Assembly (NCBI RefSeq): GCF_900099825.1
Contig: NZ_LT629693.1
Location: 3,111,001 to 3,175,000 of the forward strand
Direction of reading: 5' to 3'
Source: Bradyrhizobium ottawaense
Lineage (GTDB): Bacteria > Pseudomonadota > Alphaproteobacteria > Rhizobiales > Xanthobacteraceae
Length of the DNA stretch: 64,000 nt
The position numbers and the translations under genes are program-made. Below are positions 42,607-54,887 of this stretch, one piece after another. The notes beneath the pieces are model-generated. The model made no database searches, was not told the origin of the DNA, and saw only the letters and a program-made list of their open reading frames with translations. Each line of letters begins with the position of its first letter. Position 1 is the stretch's first letter.

Positions 42607-43317
42607 TCAGTAACACCGTGACGCGGCGATGGCGTGCAGCTTGTTGTCGCCGAGCACATGCGCCATCAAGCCCGGCACGCGAAAGATTTTCGCAAAGGCC
42701 GGATCGCGGATGCTGAGGCCGCCGGTATAGGCGCCAAAGGCCGGCATCACCGCGCGCTCGCCGTCGGACACAAAACACCGCCGTTCGATCGAGCGGCCGC
42801 GGGTCGGTACCCGCGCCTTGGGGTGCAGATGGCCGGCGATTTCGCCGGACGCGCCGGTCGGCTCATGGCGGAACACAATTGGCCCGATCGCGACTTCGCT
42901 CGCGACCACGCCGCCGAGATCCGACGGCAAGGCTGGATCGTGGTTCCCCGCAATCCAGATCCAGTCGCGCCGCACCTGCATCGCCATCAATGCCTCGCGG
43001 TCGGGCGCAGACAAACGCTCGTGGGCATCGCGGTCATGAAAACTGTCGCCGAGCGCGATCACCATCCGCGGGTCGTGGCGCGCGATCACGGCCGCCAGCC
43101 GGCTCAGCGTCGCCACGGTATCGTAGGGCGGCAACAGCACACCACGCGCCGCAAAACTGGAGCCCTTTTCCAGATGCAGGTCGGAGACGACCAGCAGCCG
43201 CTGTTCCTGCCAGAACAACGCGCCGGAGAGATCGGCGAGGAAAATAACGTCGGCGATGGCAACCTTGGAGACGCGCATATCCTGATCGTATCCCGAAACT
43301 TGCGCCGTTGCCGTCAC
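42607..43317 (-). CDS. pdeM: Ligase-associated DNA damage response metallophosphoesterase/endonuclease
   Basis: Member of the TIGR04123 (ligase-associated) group of calcineurin-like phosphoesterases, 236 residues. Metal-site motifs: VVSDLHLEKG, ALGDSFHDRD, AGNHDPA, FRHEP and GHLHPKAR. In Pseudomonas putida the homologue is a manganese-dependent nuclease (recalled). The GTG start at 43317 has GGGA six bases upstream and lies three bases from the helicase stop; an alternative ATG is at 43278. It forms a co-directional pair with the helicase. Confidence 0.92.
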   Translation of the reverse strand: MTATAQVSGYDQDMRVSKVAIADVIFLADLSGALFWQEQRLLVVSDLHLEKGSSFAARGVLLPPYDTVATLSRLAAVIARHDPRMVIALGDSFHDRDAHERLSAPDREALMAMQVRRDWIWIAGNHDPALPSDLGGVVASEVAIGPIVFRHEPTGASGEIAGHLHPKARVPTRGRSIERRCFVSDGERAVMPAFGAYTGGLSIRDPAFAKIFRVPGLMAHVLGDNKLHAIAASRCY

Positions 43318-43320
43318 GTT

Positions 43321-45903
43321 TTATCCCGTCGCCTCTTTGACCAGTCCATCGGCGGCTTCCGCCAGCAACTCGTCGGCCGCCTCGCCATAAACCGACTCGC
43401 GGCCGATTTCCAGCATCACCGGCACCGCCAGCGGCGAAACGTGATCGAGTTCCCGATGGGTGATTCGCCCCTGAATACGGGCGAGCATATCACCCAATCG
43501 CTTGAGATCGAGCAGCCCGGTAGCGGCGTCGGCGCGGGCGGCGCGCAGCAGCACATGGTCGGCCTGGTGCTTGCGCAACACGTCATAGATCAGGTCGGTC
43601 GAGAACAGCACCTGACGGCGGGATTTTTCTTCGCCGGTGAAACGCCGCGCGATCAGGCCGGAGATGACCGCGCAGGTGCGGAAGGTGCGCTTCATCAGCG
43701 CGGATTCGGCCAGCCACGCCTCGAGATCGTCGCCGAGCATGTCCGGATCGAACAGCGCGTTGAGATCGAGCTTGCCGTGGCGGATCATGAACGACATGTC
43801 GCCGAGCCCCCACACGGCCAATGCATATTCGTTGGCGACGAAACCGAGCGGCCGCACCCGCATCCGCTCCATCCGCCGCGTCAGCAGCATGCCGAGCGTC
43901 TGGTGAGCCAGCCGTCCCTCGAAGGGATAGCAGACGAGGTAATGTTTGTTGCCGCGGGGAAAAGTCTCGACCAGCAGTTCGCGCACCGCCGGCACCAGCG
44001 AAAAACTGCGTTGCAGCGACAGCCAGTCGCGGACCTGATCCGGCAACGCATTCCACTGCCGCCTGTCGTCGAGCAGCCTGCGGACGCGTTCGGCCAGGTA
44101 GGTCGAGAGCGGAAACTTGCCGCCCATGTAGGACGGCACCTTGGCATCCTTGTCGTTGGCGCGGGAAACGTAGACATTGTCTTCGGCGAGCGCTTCGTAG
44201 CGCACGACCTCGCCGCCGAATACAAAGGTATCGCCGATCACGAGGCCTTCGATGAAGGCTTCCTCGATTTCACCGAGCATGCGGCCGCCGCGCCCCAACG
44301 CACCGGTCGACCCCGAACCGCCGCCGCGCGAGCGCACCAGCTTCACCTTCAACATGGTGTCCTCGACGATGGTGCCGACGTTGAGGCGATAGCTTTGCCG
44401 CACCCGGGGATTGGCGACGCGCCAGCGGCCGTTCTTGTCCTGCTTGATGCGCGCGAAACGCTCATAGCTCTTCAGAGCATAGCCGCCGGTGGCGACGAAA
44501 TCGACCACGTCGTCGAAATCGTTGCGCGTCAGGCTGGAGTAAGTCGCCGCGGTCAGCACTTCCGCATAGAGCTCGTCGGAGAGAAACGGCTCGCCGCAGG
44601 CGCAGCCGAGCACATGCTGCGCCAGCACGTCGAGCGCGCCGATCCGTAACGGCGGCGTATCCTGCGCATTGTCGGCGATGGCGTCGATTGCGACCGCGCA
44701 TTCCAGCACTTCGAACCGATTGGCCGGCACCAGCACCGCGCGCGAGGCTTCATCGATGCGGTGGTTGGCACGGCCGATTCGTTGCATCAGCCGCGAGGCG
44801 CCCTTCGGCGCGCCGACATTGATGACGAGATCGACGTCGCCCCAGTCGACGCCAAGATCGAGTGAAGACGTGCAGACCACGCCGCGCAGTTTGCCGGCCG
44901 ACATCGCATCCTCGACCTTGCGGCGTTGCGCGACGTCGAGCGAGCCGTGATGCAGCGCGATGGCGAGGCCGTCCTCGTTCATGCGCCAGAAATCCTGGAA
45001 CAGCATTTCGGCCTGGCTGCGGGTGTTGACGAAGATCAGTGTGGTCTTGTGGCGCTTGATCAATTCATACATTTCACCGAGCGCATGGCGCGCGCTGTGG
45101 CCGGCCCAGGGCAGCCGCTCCTTGGTGTCGAGCATTTCGACGACCGGCGCCGCGGCGCCGCCCGCCACCACGATGTCGGCGGATACCTCCTTGCCGTCGC
45201 GCTGCGGCACCAGAAACCGCGCCAGCGATTCCGGCTCGGCGACGGTTGCCGACAGACCAATGCCACGCATCTCGGGCGCCAGCCGCCACAGCCGCGCCAA
45301 CCCGAGCGAGAGTAAATCGCCGCGCTTGGACGTCACCAGCGCATGCAGTTCGTCGAGCACGATCCGCTTCAGCGAGCCAAACAGAAACGGCGCATCGTCG
45401 GACGACAACAGCAGCGCCAGTTGCTCGGGCGTGGTGAGCAGGATGTCCGGCGGATAGCGCCGCTGCCGCTGCCGCCGCGACACCGGCGTGTCGCCGGTGC
45501 GGGTCTCGACCTTGATCGGCAGACCCATCTCGGCAATCGGCGTCTCCAGATTGCGCGCGATGTCGACCGCGAGCGCCTTCAACGGCGAGATATAGAGCGT
45601 ATGAAGACCGCCCGTGCGTTTCACGCCGCGGCCGGTTGAGATGAGGCCTTTCTTGTCCCCTTCCCCCTTCAGGAGCGGAGAGGCCGACAGTTCCACCAGC
45701 GTCGGCAGAAATCCGGCCAGCGTCTTGCCGGCGCCGGTGGGGGCAATCAGCAGCGCCGAGCGGTCGTCGCGGGCTTTCGCGAGCAATGCCAGCTGATGTT
45801 CACGCGGCGACCAGCCGCGCGACGCGAACCACCGGCGAAAACGGTCCGGCAGCAGCGCAGCCGTTTCAAGCGGCGTAAAGGGCAAGGGATCTGATGACGG
45901 CAC
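43321..45903 (-). CDS. Ligase-associated Lhr-type DEXH-box DNA helicase
   Basis: Member of the TIGR04121 family (Lhr-Core-like), 860 residues, ATP-dependent 3'-5' helicase for nucleic acid repair. Walker A is APTGAGKTLAGFLP, Walker B VLDELHAL, motif III GLSATVAEP and motif VI QRIGRANHR, followed by the winged-helix and Lhr C-terminal domains. The N-terminal domain contains an extra 30 or so residues between TLVELSA and GLHTLYISPLK (SASPLLKGEGDKKG...), which looks like an in-frame repeat-derived insertion. GTG start at 45903 with a weak binding site. Confidence 0.93.
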   Translation of the reverse strand: MPSSDPLPFTPLETAALLPDRFRRWFASRGWSPREHQLALLAKARDDRSALLIAPTGAGKTLAGFLPTLVELSASPLLKGEGDKKGLISTGRGVKRTGGLHTLYISPLKALAVDIARNLETPIAEMGLPIKVETRTGDTPVSRRQRQRRYPPDILLTTPEQLALLLSSDDAPFLFGSLKRIVLDELHALVTSKRGDLLSLGLARLWRLAPEMRGIGLSATVAEPESLARFLVPQRDGKEVSADIVVAGGAAAPVVEMLDTKERLPWAGHSARHALGEMYELIKRHKTTLIFVNTRSQAEMLFQDFWRMNEDGLAIALHHGSLDVAQRRKVEDAMSAGKLRGVVCTSSLDLGVDWGDVDLVINVGAPKGASRLMQRIGRANHRIDEASRAVLVPANRFEVLECAVAIDAIADNAQDTPPLRIGALDVLAQHVLGCACGEPFLSDELYAEVLTAATYSSLTRNDFDDVVDFVATGGYALKSYERFARIKQDKNGRWRVANPRVRQSYRLNVGTIVEDTMLKVKLVRSRGGGSGSTGALGRGGRMLGEIEEAFIEGLVIGDTFVFGGEVVRYEALAEDNVYVSRANDKDAKVPSYMGGKFPLSTYLAERVRRLLDDRRQWNALPDQVRDWLSLQRSFSLVPAVRELLVETFPRGNKHYLVCYPFEGRLAHQTLGMLLTRRMERMRVRPLGFVANEYALAVWGLGDMSFMIRHGKLDLNALFDPDMLGDDLEAWLAESALMKRTFRTCAVISGLIARRFTGEEKSRRQVLFSTDLIYDVLRKHQADHVLLRAARADAATGLLDLKRLGDMLARIQGRITHRELDHVSPLAVPVMLEIGRESVYGEAADELLAEAADGLVKEATG

Positions 45904-48460: not shown

Positions 48461-48604
48461 CGCCGGGGCTTAGTCGCTTGTGCCAACGGCGTAAACCCGC
48501 CTGCCTCCCCGGCCATCGATCCCGGATTTTTCCGGAAGATGGATGCGCGGGTCAAGTCCGCCGGGGCGGGTAAAAATTCGCGCAAGCCGCCCTATATCAT
48601 CCCG

Positions 48605-49666
48605 ATGCGTCCGCACGATCTCCTGCTGCCAGCTCCCGCCGGCCTGTGCTGCCAGCCGGGCGGCTTCCATATCGACCCGGTCCGGCCGGTCGAGCGCGCC
48701 GTCATTACCCATGGCCATTCCGACCACGCCCGCCCCGGCCATGGCGCGGTGCTGGCGACGCAAGAGACGCTCGACATGATGCGGCTGCGCTATGGCGACA
48801 ATTTCGCTGGCCGCACGCAGGCAATTGCTTACGGCGAGGAACTACGGCTTGGCGACGTCACGATAAAATTTCACCCGGCCGGCCATGTGCTGGGCTCGGC
48901 GCAAATCGCGGTGTCCTGCAAGGACACCTGCATCGTTGCGTCCGGCGATTACAAGGACGCACCCGATCCGACCTGCGCGCCGTTCGAGGTGGTGCCGTGC
49001 GACGTCTTCATCACCGAAGCGACCTTTGGTCTGCCGGTGTTCCGCCACGGCAACGCCGCGGATGAGGTGAAGAAGCTGCTGGCGTCGGTGGCGCTGTTTC
49101 CGGAGCGCGCGCATCTGGTCGGCGCCTATTCGCTCGGCAAGGCGCAACGCGTGATCGCGCTGCTGCGTTTGGCGGGCTACGACGCGCCGATCTACCTGCA
49201 TGGCGCGATGGAGCAGATCACATCCTATTATCAGAGCCGCGGCGTCGCGCTCGGCGAGCTGCGCCCGGTCAAGGGCGTGAAGAAAGCCGACCTCGCCGGC
49301 ACCATCACGCTGGCGCCGCCGTCGGCCACGTCAGACATCTGGACCAGGCGCTTCCCCGATCCGGTGACGGCGTTTGCCTCGGGCTGGATGCGGGTCCGGG
49401 CGCGCGCCCGGCAACGTGGCGTCGAATTGCCCCTGGTGATTTCGGACCACGCCGATTGGGACGGGCTGACCGCGACCATCTCGGCCACCGGCGCCGGCGA
49501 GATCTGGGTCACCCACGGCCAGGAGGACGCACTGGTGCATTGGTGCCAGACACGCGGCCTTGCGGCGCGGCCACTCGCGCTGGTCGGCTATGGCGACGAG
49601 GATGAGCACGAGCAAGAATCCGATAAGACCGCAGCCGACGAGGCCGCCGCTGAGACAGGCGCATGA
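48605..49666 (+). CDS. Ligase-associated DNA damage response exonuclease
   Basis: Metallo-beta-lactamase/beta-CASP-like nuclease of the TIGR04122 family, 353 residues. The metal motif HGHSDH is at residues 36-41 (VITHGHSDHARPG), with HPAGHVLGSAQI, VASGDYKDAPDP and ISDHADW completing the active site. Its ATGA overlap with the ligase shows translational coupling. The gene is the first of a two-gene block divergent from the helicase-phosphoesterase block some 2.7 kb away. Confidence 0.94.
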   Translation: MRPHDLLLPAPAGLCCQPGGFHIDPVRPVERAVITHGHSDHARPGHGAVLATQETLDMMRLRYGDNFAGRTQAIAYGEELRLGDVTIKFHPAGHVLGSAQIAVSCKDTCIVASGDYKDAPDPTCAPFEVVPCDVFITEATFGLPVFRHGNAADEVKKLLASVALFPERAHLVGAYSLGKAQRVIALLRLAGYDAPIYLHGAMEQITSYYQSRGVALGELRPVKGVKKADLAGTITLAPPSATSDIWTRRFPDPVTAFASGWMRVRARARQRGVELPLVISDHADWDGLTATISATGAGEIWVTHGQEDALVHWCQTRGLAARPLALVGYGDEDEHEQESDKTAADEAAAETGA

Positions 49667-51474
49667 ACCGCTTCGCCGAACTTTTGGACCGCCTCGCCTA
49701 TGAGCCCGGCCGCAACAACAAGCTGCGGCTGATCACCGGCTATTTTCGCGAGACCGCCGATCCGGACCGCGGCTATGCGCTGGCGGCGCTGACCGGAGCG
49801 CTGTCGTTCAAGCACGCCAAGCCCGGGCTGATTCGCGACCTGATCACGGATCGCACCGATCCGGTGCTGTTCGGGTTGTCGTATGATTATGTCGGCGACC
49901 TCTCGGAGACGGTGGCGCTGATGTGGCCGAAGTCTTCTCCCTCTCCCGCTTGCGGGGGAGGGCCGGGGTGGGGGTCTGGCCGCTTGCTCGCCGGCGAGAA
50001 AGAGCCCCCACCCGGATCGCCCAACAGCGCAAGAGCGCTGTCGAGCGATCCGACCTCCTCCGCAAGCGGGAGAGGTAAGGAAGCTGCCGCGCTCGCACCT
50101 ACCCGCCACAACAACCCGCCGCCCCCCACCCTCTCCGAGGTCGTGACCACGTTGCGCACGCTCGGCAAGACCGAACTGCCGAAGCAACTCGCGCGCTGGC
50201 TCGACGAGCTCGACGAAACCGGCCGCTGGGCGCTGCTGAAACTCGTCACCGGCGCGATGCGGATCGGGGTTTCGGCACGGCTGGCGAAGACCGCGGCGGC
50301 CGCGCTCGGCAACAAGGACGCGCATGACATCGAACTGATGTGGCCGGGGCTGACCCCGCCCTATCTCGACCTGTTCGCCTGGCTGGAGGGAAAGGCCGAC
50401 AAACCCGTCAACCGCGATCCCACGCCGTTCCGGCCGGTGATGCTGGCGCATGCGATCGAGGATGCGGATTTCGCCGGCCTCGATCCGGCAGACTTCATTG
50501 CCGAATGGAAATGGGACGGCATTCGCGTGCAGGCGGTTTCGGGCCGCGACGAACGCGGCCATCTGCAGGCGCGACTCTATTCGCGCAGCGGCGAGGACAT
50601 CACCAAGAGCTTTCCGGACCTGGTGCCGTCGCTGCATTCTCCCGGCGCCGTCGATGGCGAGTTGCTGGTGCTGCGCGACGGCCGCGTGCAGACCTTCAAC
50701 GTGCTGCAGCAACGGCTCAACCGAAAAATCGTGTCGCCGAAACTCGTCAAGGAATATCCGATCCATCTGCGCGCCTACGACCTGCTCGCCGACGATGACG
50801 CCGATCTGCGCGAATTGCCTTTTGTCGAGCGCCGCGCACGGCTGGAGGCTTTCGTCAAAAAACTCGACGACCCGCGCATCGACCTGTCGCCGACGGTCGC
50901 CTTCGATAGCTGGGACGCGCTGACGGCAGCGCGCGCCGATCCCGCCAGCGCCGGTGCGGGCGAGGATGCCGACGCCGTCGAGGGCGTGATGCTGAAACGC
51001 CGCGACGCGCTCTATCTGCCGGGCCGCCCCAAGGGCCAATGGTGGAAGTGGAAGCGCGATCCGCATTTGATCGACGCCGTGCTGATGTATGCGCAGCGCG
51101 GGCACGGCAAGCGCTCGTCCTATTACTCGGACTACACCTTCGGGGTATGGACCGACAGCGACGGCAGCGAGCAACTGGTGCCGGTCGGCAAGGCCTATTT
51201 CGGCTTCACCGACGAGGAACTGCTGCAGATCGACCGTTTCGTCCGCCGCAACACCACCGAAAAGTTCGGCCCGGTCCGCCATGTCGTGCACGAGCCGGAC
51301 CAAGGCCTTGTGCTGGAAGTGGCCTTCGAGGGGCTCGCCCGCTCGTCGCGGCACAAATCCGGCGTCGCGATGCGGTTTCCGCGCATTAATCGGCTGCGCT
51401 GGGACAAACCGCCACGTGAGGCCGACCGGCTGGAGACGCTGGAGCGGATGTTAAAGAGTGTGACAACAATTTAA
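49663..51474 (+). CDS. ATP-dependent DNA ligase of the TIGR04120 (PP_1105-like) family, with in-frame repeat insertion
   Basis: ATP-dependent ligase, 603 residues. The nucleotidyl lysine is K283 in EWKWDGIR; other motifs are GELLVL, GVMLKRRDALY and KWKRDP, with a C-terminal OB-fold domain (FGFTDEELLQIDRF). The N-terminal domain begins FAELLDRLAYEPGRNNKLRLI. Between about residues 91 and 139 is a segment rich in Gly, Pro and Ser (for example SPSPACGGGPGWGSG) encoded by a copy of an intergenic palindromic repeat. It adds nearly 50 residues to a family usually near 550, without a frameshift. Confidence 0.94.
   Translation: MNRFAELLDRLAYEPGRNNKLRLITGYFRETADPDRGYALAALTGALSFKHAKPGLIRDLITDRTDPVLFGLSYDYVGDLSETVALMWPKSSPSPACGGGPGWGSGRLLAGEKEPPPGSPNSARALSSDPTSSASGRGKEAAALAPTRHNNPPPPTLSEVVTTLRTLGKTELPKQLARWLDELDETGRWALLKLVTGAMRIGVSARLAKTAAAALGNKDAHDIELMWPGLTPPYLDLFAWLEGKADKPVNRDPTPFRPVMLAHAIEDADFAGLDPADFIAEWKWDGIRVQAVSGRDERGHLQARLYSRSGEDITKSFPDLVPSLHSPGAVDGELLVLRDGRVQTFNVLQQRLNRKIVSPKLVKEYPIHLRAYDLLADDDADLRELPFVERRARLEAFVKKLDDPRIDLSPTVAFDSWDALTAARADPASAGAGEDADAVEGVMLKRRDALYLPGRPKGQWWKWKRDPHLIDAVLMYAQRGHGKRSSYYSDYTFGVWTDSDGSEQLVPVGKAYFGFTDEELLQIDRFVRRNTTEKFGPVRHVVHEPDQGLVLEVAFEGLARSSRHKSGVAMRFPRINRLRWDKPPREADRLETLERMLKSVTTI
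49934..50079. repeat. Palindromic repeat (family D) inserted in frame in the DNA ligase gene
   Basis: CCTCTCCCGCTTGCGGGGGAGG at the left end and CCTCCTCCGCAAGCGGGAGAGG at the right end share 16 exactly complementary bases; an inner pair GGGGTGGGGG / CCCCCACCC extends the hairpin. The length keeps the ligase reading frame. A related unit lies in the intergenic gap at 53243-53436. Confidence 0.88.
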
Positions 51475-51575
51475 GGTGCCGCCGGCGAATAGCTGCCATT
51501 GACGCCCCAATGCGGGTTCCCCATGTGCCCAGCCTTGACCTATACTGTGCGGGCAGGACCCCGCAGGAGAGACCG

Positions 51576-51878
51576 ATGCCCAACGACGTCAGAGACTTGC
51601 CGGCCAGCCATGACGGCCTGTACCGATTTCTCGGCGGCTCGCCGCTGTCGGTGGCGTTCCGGCTGATCCTGCTGTCGGTGCTGGTCGGCGTGGTGCTCTC
51701 GGTGATCGGGTTCGATCCCTGGAATATCCTGCACAGCATCCAGACCCTGTTCCGGCGGATCTGGGATCTCGGCTTCGACGCCGTCAACTGGCTGTGGCGC
51801 TACTTCCTGCTCGGCGCCGTGATCGTGATCCCGATCTGGCTGCTGTCGCGGATGTTCGGCACCCCGCGCGGACGGTAG
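51576..51878 (+). CDS. Small membrane protein, DUF6460-like
   Basis: A 100-residue protein with two predicted helices (VAFRLILLSVLVGVVLSVIGF and YFLLGAVIVIPIWLLSRMF), an aromatic stretch between them and a short soluble N-terminus. I recall this pattern as DUF6460 in Bradyrhizobium, without known function. AGGAGA precedes ATG 51576 by about seven bases; an in-frame ATG at 51510 has no such signal. It stands 102 bases after the ligase. Confidence 0.75.
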   Translation: MPNDVRDLPASHDGLYRFLGGSPLSVAFRLILLSVLVGVVLSVIGFDPWNILHSIQTLFRRIWDLGFDAVNWLWRYFLLGAVIVIPIWLLSRMFGTPRGR

Positions 51879-51903
51879 AGGCCGAGCCAGCGACGCCCAG
51901 GCA

Positions 51904-53220
51904 GTGTCGCCTCCCGCATCGAAAGTAACGACGGCGCAGGTGTTCGCCATCGCGGGTCCCGCGATGGTCGCGAACCTGACCACGCCGCTGATCGGAATCG
52001 TCTCGACCACGGCGATCGGCCGGCTCGGCGACGCCACGCTGCTCGGCGGCGTGGCGATGGCGTCGGTGCTGTTCGACTGCATGTTCTGGCTGTTTGCGTT
52101 CCTGCGCATGAGCACGGTTGCTTTCACGGCGCAGTCGCTCGGCGCCGGCGAAGCGAGCGAATTGCGCGCGATCCTGGTGCGCGGCTTCATCGTCGCGGCG
52201 CTGATCGGCACAGGCCTCATCGTGCTGCAGATTCCGCTGGCCACGCTCATGCTCGGCGCGATGGGCGGCAGCGAGGGCGTCACCCGCGCCGCCAAAACCT
52301 ATTTCACGATCCGGATCTGGTCGGCGCCGCTGGCGCTCGGCAATTATGTCGTGCTCGGCTGGCTGATCGGACAGGCCCGCGCCAAACTGGCGCTCGGCAC
52401 CCAGATCGCCATCAACCTGATCAACATGGCGGCGACGATGCTGCTGGTGCTGGTGTTCGACTTCGGCATCGCAGGGGCCGCGATCGCAGCCGTGATCGCG
52501 GAAGCGGCAGGACTTCTGCTCGGCGTCGTGATCGCACGGCGCCTGCAAGGCACGTTGACGGTGCCACGCGCGACGCTGTTCGACCGCGCCAAGCTGATGC
52601 GCATGCTCGCCGTCAACCGCGACATCATGATCCGCACCGCGTCATTGATCACGGCGTTCCTGTTTTTTACCGCGCAGGGCGCCCGCGCGGGAGACATGAC
52701 GCTCGCGGCCAATGCCGTGCTGAACAATTTTCTTCTGATCAGCGCGTTCTTCCTCGACGGCCTCGCCAACGCCGCCGAACAGCTTTGCGGCCGCGCCTAT
52801 GGCGCCCGCAACAGAAATGCTTTCGCCGGCGCGGTGCGGCTGGTGCTGATCTGGGGTTTTGCGTTTGCCGTTGCGGTGGCCGCAGTCTTCGCGCTGTTCG
52901 GGACCTCGTTCATCGACATCATGACCGCGAGCACGGAGGTCCGGCGCATCGCCCGCGATTATCTGCCGTTCGTGGTGTTCGCGCCGTTGCTCGGCGTGTT
53001 CGCCTTTGCCTATGACGGCGTCTATATCGGCGCCACCTGGGCCCGCGACATGCGCAACCTGATGGTGCTGTCGCTGCTGGTCTTTCTTGCCGCCTGGTTC
53101 GCGCTGCGATCGTTCGGCAATGCCGGACTGTGGGGCGCGCTGCTCGCGCACTACGCCGCCCGCGGCGGACTCGAGGCGCTGCGTTATCCGGTGTTGCTGA
53201 GGAAGTCGTTTGCGACGTGA
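51904..53220 (+). CDS. MATE-family multidrug/Na+ antiporter
   Basis: Twelve-helix efflux protein (438 residues) of the MATE/DinF group. The family features include AGPAMVANLTTPLIGIVSTTAIGRLG near the N-terminus and repeated glycine/alanine-rich helices. It exports cationic drugs or organic acids; substrate unknown. The GTG start at 51904 is supported only weakly (AGG close upstream). It follows the small membrane protein gene by 25 bases and might be co-transcribed with it. Confidence 0.9.
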   Translation: MSPPASKVTTAQVFAIAGPAMVANLTTPLIGIVSTTAIGRLGDATLLGGVAMASVLFDCMFWLFAFLRMSTVAFTAQSLGAGEASELRAILVRGFIVAALIGTGLIVLQIPLATLMLGAMGGSEGVTRAAKTYFTIRIWSAPLALGNYVVLGWLIGQARAKLALGTQIAINLINMAATMLLVLVFDFGIAGAAIAAVIAEAAGLLLGVVIARRLQGTLTVPRATLFDRAKLMRMLAVNRDIMIRTASLITAFLFFTAQGARAGDMTLAANAVLNNFLLISAFFLDGLANAAEQLCGRAYGARNRNAFAGAVRLVLIWGFAFAVAVAAVFALFGTSFIDIMTASTEVRRIARDYLPFVVFAPLLGVFAFAYDGVYIGATWARDMRNLMVLSLLVFLAAWFALRSFGNAGLWGALLAHYAARGGLEALRYPVLLRKSFAT

Positions 53221-53242
53221 GAGGTCGCGCTGAACCGGTGGT

Positions 53243-53436
53243 GCGCTCCCTCGCCCCGCTCTTGCGGGGAGAGGGTTGGGGTGAGGGGCTCTATCCACGG
53301 GTGAAGTTGATCGAGGGACCTGTACCCCCTCACCTGGATCGCTGCGCGATAGCCGAAGCTTCGCTTCGGCGTTCTTTTTTAAGGACGGCCGCCCTAGGCG
53401 GCCTATGCTCTCCCCGCAAGCGGGGCGAGGTAAGAG
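53243..53436. repeat. Palindromic intergenic repeat (family D)
   Basis: Left arm CTCCCTCGCCCCGCTCTTGC with GGGGAGAGGG, right arm CTCTCCCCGCAAGCGGGGCG with AGGTAAG. It carries internal GATCGCTGCGCGATAGC and TTCGGCGTTCTTTTTTAAGG segments. It is the intergenic relative of the element in the ligase gene. Confidence 0.88.
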
Positions 53437-53448
53437 AGCAGCAAGGCT

Positions 53449-54546
53449 CTATTTCACCGGCCAATCTTCGGCCGTGATCGCCGCCGCATCGGCGCCGACG
53501 ATTTCTGACAATGAATCGCGCCCGGTCCGCAGCAAGGTCGAAGCCAGATCACTCTTGATGCCTTCGACGAGGCCAAGGCCCTTGTAGACCAGCGACGAAT
53601 ACAACTGGATCAGGCTGGCGCCGGCGCGGATCTTTGTCAGCGCGGCGCCGCCGGAATCGATGCCGCCGACCCCGACCAGCGGAAACGCGCCTTCGGCCCG
53701 CACATAGGTCTCCGCCACCATGCGGGTCGACAATCGAAACAGCGGCCGCCCCGACAGGCCGCCCTGCTCCCTGGCGCGGTTGGTCTCGCGCAGGCTCGCG
53801 GGCCGCGCCAGCGTAGTGTTGGCGACGATCATGCCGTCGACCCGGCGCGAGCGGGCGATATGCACGACGTCGTCGAGTTCAGCCAGACTGAGGTCCGGCG
53901 CGATCTTCAGTAGCACCGGCGAATCGCCGGCGTTCTTGCGCACCCGTTCGCGGGCATCGATCACCTTGGCGAGGAGATCGTCGAGCGCGGCCGACTGCTG
54001 CAGGTTGCGCAGGCCGGGCGTGTTCGGCGAGGAAACGTTGACGGTGAAATAGCTCGCGACCGGCGCAAAGGTCTCGATCAGCTTGACGTAATCGGCGACG
54101 CGATCGGCCGAATCCTTGTTGGCCCCGACATTGACGCCGACGATGCCGCCCATATGCGCGCGCGCGGCGAGCCGCCGCAGCACGGCTTCGGCACCGTCAT
54201 TGTTGAAGCCCATGCGGTTGATCACGGCCTCATCGCGTTCGAGCCGGAACAGCCGCGGCCGCGGATTGCCGGCTTGCGGCTTCGGCGTCACGCTGCCGAT
54301 CTCGACGAACCCAAAGCCCAGCCGCAGCAGCGCGTCCGGCGCCTCCGCGCTCTTGTCGAAGCCCGCGGCCATGCCGATCGGGTTGGGGAAATTCAGGCCG
54401 AACGCCCGCACCGCCAGTTTCGGATCGTCGGTGCGCGGCTTGGTCGGCGGCAGCAGCCGCAGGCCCTGGATCGCCATGCGGTGGGCGTCTTCCGGATCGA
54501 ACCAGCGCAGCAGCGGCAGCGAGAAGGCGTCGAAGGCACGGATCAC
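53449..54546 (-). CDS. pyrD: Dihydroorotate dehydrogenase (quinone), class 2
   Basis: Membrane-associated flavoenzyme (365 residues) oxidising dihydroorotate to orotate with quinone, the fourth step of pyrimidine biosynthesis. Signatures: NPIGMAAGFDKSAE, GSVTPKPQAGNPRPRLFRL, FTVNVSSPNTPGLR with catalytic Ser near residue 173, and LVGVGGIDSG. An N-terminal helical extension provides the membrane contact typical of class 2. The ATG overlaps the stop of the DUF952 gene. Confidence 0.96.
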   Translation of the reverse strand: MIRAFDAFSLPLLRWFDPEDAHRMAIQGLRLLPPTKPRTDDPKLAVRAFGLNFPNPIGMAAGFDKSAEAPDALLRLGFGFVEIGSVTPKPQAGNPRPRLFRLERDEAVINRMGFNNDGAEAVLRRLAARAHMGGIVGVNVGANKDSADRVADYVKLIETFAPVASYFTVNVSSPNTPGLRNLQQSAALDDLLAKVIDARERVRKNAGDSPVLLKIAPDLSLAELDDVVHIARSRRVDGMIVANTTLARPASLRETNRAREQGGLSGRPLFRLSTRMVAETYVRAEGAFPLVGVGGIDSGGAALTKIRAGASLIQLYSSLVYKGLGLVEGIKSDLASTLLRTGRDSLSEIVGADAAAITAEDWPVK

Positions 54547-54887
54547 GGCTTCAACTCCGGAATGTCGTGATACCCGTCGGACCGCGCCCGCATGTCGAGG
54601 ATCGCGGTGACCGCGCCGATATCGAGTTCGCCATAGAGATGCGGAAACAGCTCGTCATTGCGCGAACGCTCCCAGCGCAAGGCGTCGCCGAGCGCCTCGG
54701 CATCGACCGCGATCAGGAACAGGCCGGTCTGCCCGAAATAGTGCTTCCGGGCCGTCTCCGCGACCTGGGCGGCGGTGGAGAAATGAATGAAGCCGTCGCG
54801 CAGGTCGTCCGCACTGCCCTTGTAGACGCCCTGCCGTTCGGCCTCGCGCCAGGCCGAAGCGGGACTGATTTTGTAGATCGTGGGCAC
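54543..54887 (-). CDS. DUF952 domain protein
   Basis: A 114-residue protein of the DUF952 family: TIYKISPASAWREAERQGVYKGSADDLRDGFIHFSTAAQV near the start, then LIAVDAEALGDALRWERSRNDELFPHLYGEL. The domain resembles ADP-ribosyl-binding or ADP-ribosyltransferase-like folds in some predictions, but no activity is established. The GTG start at 54887 gives the family N-terminus; the binding site (GGAA) is weak. It is translationally coupled to pyrD. Confidence 0.88.
   Translation of the reverse strand: MPTIYKISPASAWREAERQGVYKGSADDLRDGFIHFSTAAQVAETARKHYFGQTGLFLIAVDAEALGDALRWERSRNDELFPHLYGELDIGAVTAILDMRARSDGYHDIPELKP

Follow-up and report, generated by a model that had tools for sequence, protein, structure and literature searches.

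Palindromic repeats of several families, in frame at one linker of a DNA ligase in Bradyrhizobium and its relatives

The stretch of DNA analysed here, the window, covers 64,000 nucleotides of a Bradyrhizobium ottawaense genome and contains an ATP-dependent DNA ligase gene with a palindromic repeat inside its coding sequence. The ligase, its partner genes, the parts of the palindrome and a second, intergenic repeat are located as follows.

42607-43317, minus strand: ligase-associated endonuclease PdeM (TIGR04123)
43321-45903, minus strand: ligase-associated DEXH helicase (TIGR04121)
48470-49666, plus strand: ligase-associated exonuclease (TIGR04122), directly 5' of the ligase, with a putative start codon
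49663-51474, plus strand: ATP-dependent DNA ligase (TIGR04120), 603 aa, host of the insert, from open reading frame and family match
49930-50106, plus strand: linker with the insert, residues 90-148, from the codon after ..ALMWP to the one before HNNPP
49940-50075: palindrome of 136 bp, in frame in the ligase reading frame
49940-49961, plus strand: left outer arm of the palindrome, 22 nt, from inverted-repeat search and RNA fold
49966-50013, plus strand: inner stem-loop 1, GGGGTGGGGG / CCCCCACCC, from RNA fold
50014-50051, plus strand: inner stem-loop 2, GGATCG / CGATCC, with an inner GCGC stem, from RNA fold
50054-50075, plus strand: right outer arm of the palindrome, 22 nt, from inverted-repeat search and RNA fold
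53249-53430, no strand assigned: loosely related palindromic repeat, intergenic between a MATE transporter gene and pyrD, from inverted-repeat search

The ligase belongs to the TIGR04120 family, which it matches over residues 3-597 with 811 bits against a cut-off of 400, and its neighbourhood in the window contains the TIGR04121, TIGR04122 and TIGR04123 partners. A sequence-only reading of the window had described an inverted repeat with 16 exactly complementary end bases, read in frame within this gene. Both points hold: the arms pair at 21 of 22 positions (95% complementary), including the 16 exact end pairs, and the reading frame 49663-51474 passes through the insert with no stop. The best gapless stem in 49934-50079 scores 19, compared to a mean of 7.6 and a maximum of 12 in 200 dinucleotide shuffles. 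In the RNA fold, an outer stem encloses two inner stem-loops at -108 kcal/mol (z -10.3), and none of 200 shuffles folds equally well. An Rfam scan of 48500-54600 gave no relevant match, the two sub-threshold matches both being located away from the palindrome. The words GTAG and CGTC are absent from the arms 49940-49961 and 50054-50075 (CCTCTCCCGC..GCGGGAGAGG), and the repeat does not qualify as a GTAG/CGTC REP by these words. However, CCTC is present at the arm ends, and since CCTC is named together with TGTC as a variant of CGTC in the excerpts of PMC3733652, a degenerate CGTC element is conceivable. No target-site duplication is clear by eye at the insert junctions. The related repeat proposed at 53243-53436 is a real palindrome, with a best gapless stem of 13 where 100 shuffles reach 12 at most, but its likeness to the ligase palindrome is loose, with 86 of 146 aligned bases identical.

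The linker of the window's ligase is 59 residues long (K90-R148) and that of insert-free Bradyrhizobium ligases mostly 6, so the gain is about 53 residues and not about 48 as first estimated. The AlphaFold model of the ligase, from a 49-row alignment (A1), has a mean pLDDT of 83.9 and a predicted fold that resembles archaeal and human ATP-dependent ligases. Residues 94-148, between the helices 80-87 and 157-166, form the sole stretch of at least three residues with pLDDT below 50. According to this model, the insert-bearing linker is probably disordered.

The repeat is dispersed in the window's own genome, G000. The arm consensus with at most three mismatches has 42 matches in the 8.34 Mb, which by our own count merge into 16 places; a reversed control pattern has none. 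We inspected 13 of these places with 1.5 kb on each side (all but 1004010, 4379442 and 4797875), and two of the 13 copies are within genes with family domains, namely the ligase and imuB. In the imuB-like gene (G000:C1:1142308-1142466, loci L012 and L349), about 60 residues carry the same palindrome as the ligase, between RRILSLWLPRLPIDRI and PHVVIAKQSNAL, as a second in-frame member of the same family. A dispersed repeat with in-frame copies in two genes supports the parallel drawn earlier with the coding palindromes of Rickettsia. Open reading frames over the copies L002, L003, L006, L009, L011, L017, L022 and L023, and the plus-strand frames scanned at L010 and L013, match no family and were not counted as genes. 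For L004, L007 and the minus-strand frame of L010/L013, the domain is downstream of the copy, and these were read as intergenic copies 5' of a gene. A tblastn search with the ligase insert gives many short, insert-only matches in G004 and G010, which have dozens of dispersed copies; such matches are a trap for similarity-based annotation.

The ligase was found in 155 of the 156 Bradyrhizobium genomes searched. From 235 ligase loci taken, some overlapping, 220 linkers were readable, and 110 of the 113 linkers of at least 50 codons are open, in frame and N-free. Of the other three, G006 has 286 nt and a run of 24 G, G165 has 326 nt, and the R. palustris XCP linker has N inside; G006 and G165 show frame shifts. 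In G006 (locus L045, contig C22) the frame shift and the run are in a C-type insert, and the run is probably a sequencing or assembly error. The 15 unreadable linkers include that of G065, with stops within the insert, and that of a second Rhodopseudomonas palustris (L153), with N and no continuous frame; for others the contig starts only within the insert. At the same locus in relatives, the frame is mostly kept, and breaks occur in a few drafts (G006, G165, G065 and the N-bearing Rhodopseudomonas). The sequence-only reading had asked if the insert is tolerated as a surface loop; the pLDDT below 50 at 94-148 and the frame kept in long linkers make tolerance the best-supported reading, as judged from a structural model and sequence comparison.

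Among 141 Bradyrhizobium ligases scored, 75 have an insert or a remnant at the linker and 66 have none. The inserts belong to three repeat families, stacked in some ligases: type A is that of the window, type B is GHPSPQPSPTRGEGA..SPLAGEGQGEGY and type C is SSPLPPRSGGEGSGVGG..PPTPDPSPP. The type labels are partly by eye, because the classifier missed several types, and hand assignment was needed for D, E, F, Crev, A_rem and some others. Stacked or nested inserts combine B and C in L205 and L207, C and half of B in L262, and B and half of A in L253; in-frame remnants, which are deletion scars, exist in L094/L232, L185 and L071. At L108 and L184 (G107), the ligase has a type A insert and lacks about 20 conserved residues (FGLSYDYVGDLSETVALMWP), the frame being open. 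At L142 (B. cajani 1010), well within the contig, other sequence replaces the ligase N-terminus 5' of the B right arm, a rearrangement or misassembly at the repeat.

A genus tree of the 141 ligases, built from the flanks only, requires at least 37 changes between presence and absence, of which 26 are forced by well-supported branches. Outside the genus, ligases of Rhodopseudomonas, Afipia, Xanthobacteraceae and Beijerinckiaceae have inserts of their own. Homologues beyond Bradyrhizobium do not in general share the residues of the insert; they either have no insert, or have palindromes at different junctions, in Afipia partly of the same family, or have longer unclassified linkers. In an order-wide tree of 79 ligases the insert types need 29 changes; type D (Xanthobacteraceae) and type E (Rhodopseudomonas) each form one clade, type A is found in four separate places, two of them Afipia, and the L124 ligase has type C in reverse orientation. 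Because the types differ and are scattered in the trees, we infer at least about eight, and more likely at least ten, separate insertions at this linker.

Other genes that contain the repeats were sought with insert-only peptides against 5.8 billion proteins, at lengths of 0.55-1.75 of the query. All 76 matches of the type B peptide and all 82 of type A are ligases (81 of the latter by Pfam, P0089 by reading), although these queries included several ligase residues and the search used a cut-off of 0.01 in a huge database and required exact shared words, so that weaker hosts may be missed. The imuB insert peptide (E up to 10) has 48 matches, consisting of whole or fragmentary DnaE2 (31) and ImuB (13) proteins and four others, three of which match at the C-terminal tail only and one has no domain. 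Most of the DnaE2 matches (among P0164-P0205) have a palindrome peptide before WA(D/E)RI..AR.RR.FTSLE; the dnaE2 of G000 is without it.

A check independent of peptides used 72 non-ligase B-unit loci from five genomes (15 in G010, 18 in G002, 8 in G142, 11 of the A version in G080 and, among the matches listed, 20 in G155) and seven type C loci in G041, five of them readable. Pfam was run on open reading frames reaching at least 60 residues, or 70 in the case of type C, beyond both ends of the unit. A domain spans the unit in 2 of the 72 loci, both the ligase-associated helicase (L351 and L439, partial in the sequence taken), in a test that is blind to genes without Pfam domains and with few in-gene copies outside the ligase. 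In three more B-unit loci the domain is downstream only; CcmB (L365, L432) and a His-tRNA-synthetase-like gene (L358) were accordingly set aside as having intergenic copies 5' of the gene.

Read by eye, 7 of 24 Bradyrhizobium genomes have palindrome-type peptides in the helicase linker; in the imuB linker such peptides are present in 7 of 23 readable genomes, or 6 of 22 besides G000. In the TIGR04121 helicase, palindromes of several types are located in the linker after the Walker A motif (L351, L439, L390-L395, L413). The helicase linker of the window (45571-45738) has no large insert, only a short SPLLKGEG stretch. In the imuB linkers of four relatives (L310-L312, L314), a different shared peptide starts with KAFSSEV, which we assume may derive from another dispersed repeat. 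All in-gene copies recognised in this analysis are in DNA-damage genes, i.e., the ligase, its partner helicase, ImuB and DnaE2. The earlier picture of a single ligase insert is too small: it is one case of a recurrent invasion, at this linker and in linkers of other DNA-damage genes.

Type B, the commonest insert, is an inverted pair of a hairpin unit. Across the genomes, B units are often found in opposite-orientation pairs about 75-165 bp apart, some singly, an organisation like that of REPINs or BIMEs. In 59 B inserts the spacer differs at rates of 0.49, 0.48 and 0.51 at codon positions 1, 2 and 3, and the outer flanks at about 0.4 at each position; for the ligase codons just 3' of the insert the rates are 0.06, 0.03 and 0.32. 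The equal rates show no constraint on the spacer at the protein level beyond the frame. In the same 59 inserts, arm differences are low at every codon position, 0.06-0.13, so that the arms are held at the DNA level.

The two arms agree with each other and with the copies elsewhere in the genome. One loop base, A or G, is identical between the arms in 46 of 50 readable inserts, and it has changed 13 and 11 times on the tree in the two arms; in independent contrasts, 5.8 of 8 agree and 0.1 disagree. For 32 B genomes, picked to represent both versions, we counted exact A- and G-version units and subtracted those of the ligase itself. The right arm has the resident majority version in 28 of 29 genomes and the left arm in 29 of 32, with G004, G012 and G132 as exceptions. 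On supported branches there are six arm-resident contrasts for the left arm and four for the right, of which three agree in each case, none disagrees and the rest show no difference; the independent contrasts are few, so the match could still be due in part to shared ancestry. From these patterns we infer that the B arms evolve in concert with the resident copies, probably by gene conversion.

The main rival to gene conversion is selection on the DNA or mRNA hairpin, for example as an attenuator or a protein-binding site, with a binding factor that has diverged together with the repeats. The arms conserved at all codon positions, their match to the resident version and the very stable hairpin of the window's type A insert, with its z of -10.3, are what it would predict. 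However, the 66 ligases without an insert do without such a hairpin, other families with other stems occupy the same place, and hairpin selection alone would not make the arms track the resident version. We regard this explanation as unlikely.

The age of the B insert bears on a second alternative, in which an insertion hotspot receives, separately in each species, a copy of that species' own resident repeats, without long inheritance. Between types independent gain is clear, as family, junction or orientation sets A, B, C, D, E and the reversed C of L124 apart. Within type B, however, the spacer is alignable across Bradyrhizobium, and the dispersed copies looked at carry other spacers. Spacer divergence also follows ligase divergence (Mantel r 0.32, p 0.001, 58 inserts), from 0.16-0.25 at ligase distances of 0.04-0.06 to 0.51 at 0.17, so that the B insert is inherited from an old insertion. 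Independent gain in every species is thus quite unlikely as a general account.

It could also be proposed that a longer flexible linker improves the ligase and that in-frame insertions are positively selected. The repeated gain at a single linker would agree with this, but the B spacer changes equally at the three codon positions, the linker varies from 42 to 98 residues in the 59 B inserts, and 66 of the 141 ligases have no insert, all of which makes a benefit very improbable. An assembly artefact is scarcely credible, and so is a broken gene or one split by a removable intervening sequence: the contigs of L144, L154 and L198 do start within the insert and G006 and G065 have their G run and stops, but the one-contig genomes G000, G002, G015, G122 and G142 have it in frame, 110 of 113 long linkers are open, and a removable sequence would have no need of a frame.

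For type A the counts are small and mixed. The insert of the window differs from that of G154 at 14 sites, 2, 3 and 9 at codon positions 1, 2 and 3, and this third-position excess hints at constraint; the pair L062/L086 differs at 12, 8 and 7 sites, with no such excess. The type A insert of the window presumably behaves like type B.

The presence of B is almost unlinked to the ligase tree, with 35 changes between B and the empty state compared to a mean of 41.4 and a lowest value of 32 when shuffled (124 rows, 200 shuffles). Scanned in 150-nt windows along the ligase, no prominent linkage to insert state is seen (35 to 44 changes). Local recombination finds no support as the cause of gain and loss: the ratio of near to far divergence is 1.29 in 30 flip pairs, compared to 1.27 in 21 both-empty and 1.34 in 17 both-B control pairs, and the comparison of flip with same-state pairs reveals no conversion tract at the insert junction. 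In the youngest flip pair, L168/L212, divergence is raised beside the junction, 10.7% versus 2.2%. The insert-free linkers are of near-uniform length, which would not be expected from independent sloppy deletions.

We suggest, with a probability of about 0.78, that a dispersed intergenic palindrome has entered a damage-response ligase in frame, at a linker that is probably disordered, and is tolerated there. The repeat is dispersed and in frame, and the same linker has taken up palindromes of several families many times, with stacking and in-frame scars; in type B the spacer drifts as protein-neutral sequence. The B arms would be maintained by gene conversion with resident copies, and the frame and its openness solely by selection on the ligase. 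The insert peptide itself would have no function, and such insertions would survive in DNA-damage proteins with flexible linkers. The best reading of the inserts is thus that they are tolerated selfish repeats, with arms that appear to evolve in concert with the other copies of the genome.

It can be speculated further that DNA-damage genes (the ligase, its partner helicase, ImuB and DnaE2) are a preferred niche of Rhizobiales palindromes, and that their coding copies belong to a genome-wide pool through gene conversion. Such a niche could result from a coupling of insertion and repair or from mildly impaired repair that favours the spread of palindromes. This extension is tentative and we consider it doubtful.

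At one linker, in several families of a bacterial order, selfish intergenic repeats repeatedly become coding, and their gain, stacking and decay can be followed in nature beside linkers from which they are cleanly absent. Three forces are separable in the inserts: protein selection, on the frame only, drift of the spacer and, probably, exchange of the arms with other copies. The in-gene bias to DNA-damage genes, reported earlier for unrelated REPs, raises a testable question about repair genes and palindromes. For annotation the inserts are a warning, as they can break assemblies and blur models of ligase, ImuB, DnaE2 and helicase.

The palindromic intergenic repeats of Rhizobiales include the Rhizobium intergenic mosaic elements (RIME), and by description the ligase repeat is like them in kind. 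The closest coding parallel is in Rickettsia, where protein genes contain short palindromes that keep the reading frame (Ogata et al. 2000, 2002, as described in excerpts of PMC6649704 and PMC3767692). According to the same excerpts, proteins with these elements are reported to be active, orthologues have the insert at the same place, and Wolbachia has coding palindromes too. The Bradyrhizobium inserts resemble them, by description, as in-frame palindromic repeats in genes, in another order; the Rickettsia elements lose their repeat identity over time (PMC6649704, in part), whereas the B arms are kept. In one region of a biotin ligase gene, Rickettsia has RPE-4 and Wolbachia an element of its own, and the authors do not exclude hotspots (excerpt of PMC3767692). 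A single linker taken by several unrelated families is absent from the Rickettsia descriptions in the parts of PMC6649704 and PMC3767692 consulted.

In mitochondrial genes of Nematomorpha, coding inverted repeats have arms that change in concert and are gained and lost between species, as stated in parts of PMC6649704. Those palindromes are perfect, belong to animal mitochondria and have no dispersed intergenic family, in contrast to the dispersed ligase repeat, and template switching within one palindrome, not exchange among copies, is offered there as a possible mechanism. MITE-like intergenic repeats of enterobacteria are also intragenic and can add coding sequence (PMC2759123 and PMC2229807, in excerpts); these small mobile repeats are of other families in other hosts. 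The excerpts of the stem-loop survey PMC2267715 do not mention Bradyrhizobium.

In the excerpts of Di Nocera et al. 2013 (PMC3733652), GTAG/CGTC REPs are described inside genes, many of them for DNA repair; DnaE2 is among these, as is a DNA ligase of O. terrae, and recB of two Xanthomonas species has different REPs at nearly the same position. The Bradyrhizobium arms differ from these REPs in having no GTAG/CGTC tag. The same excerpts do not name the TIGR04120 ligase, the ligase-associated helicase or ImuB, and contain no test of neutrality or concerted evolution. Among the matches listed from the open-access literature there is no report of inserts in the ligase linker, the helicase or ImuB, nor of a coding repeat that evolves in concert with dispersed copies. 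The entry of one linker by several families and a coding copy that would evolve with the copies of its genome, neither of which we found in print, are thus apparently new, and they add to what is known already, i.e., coding palindromes and REPs in repair genes.
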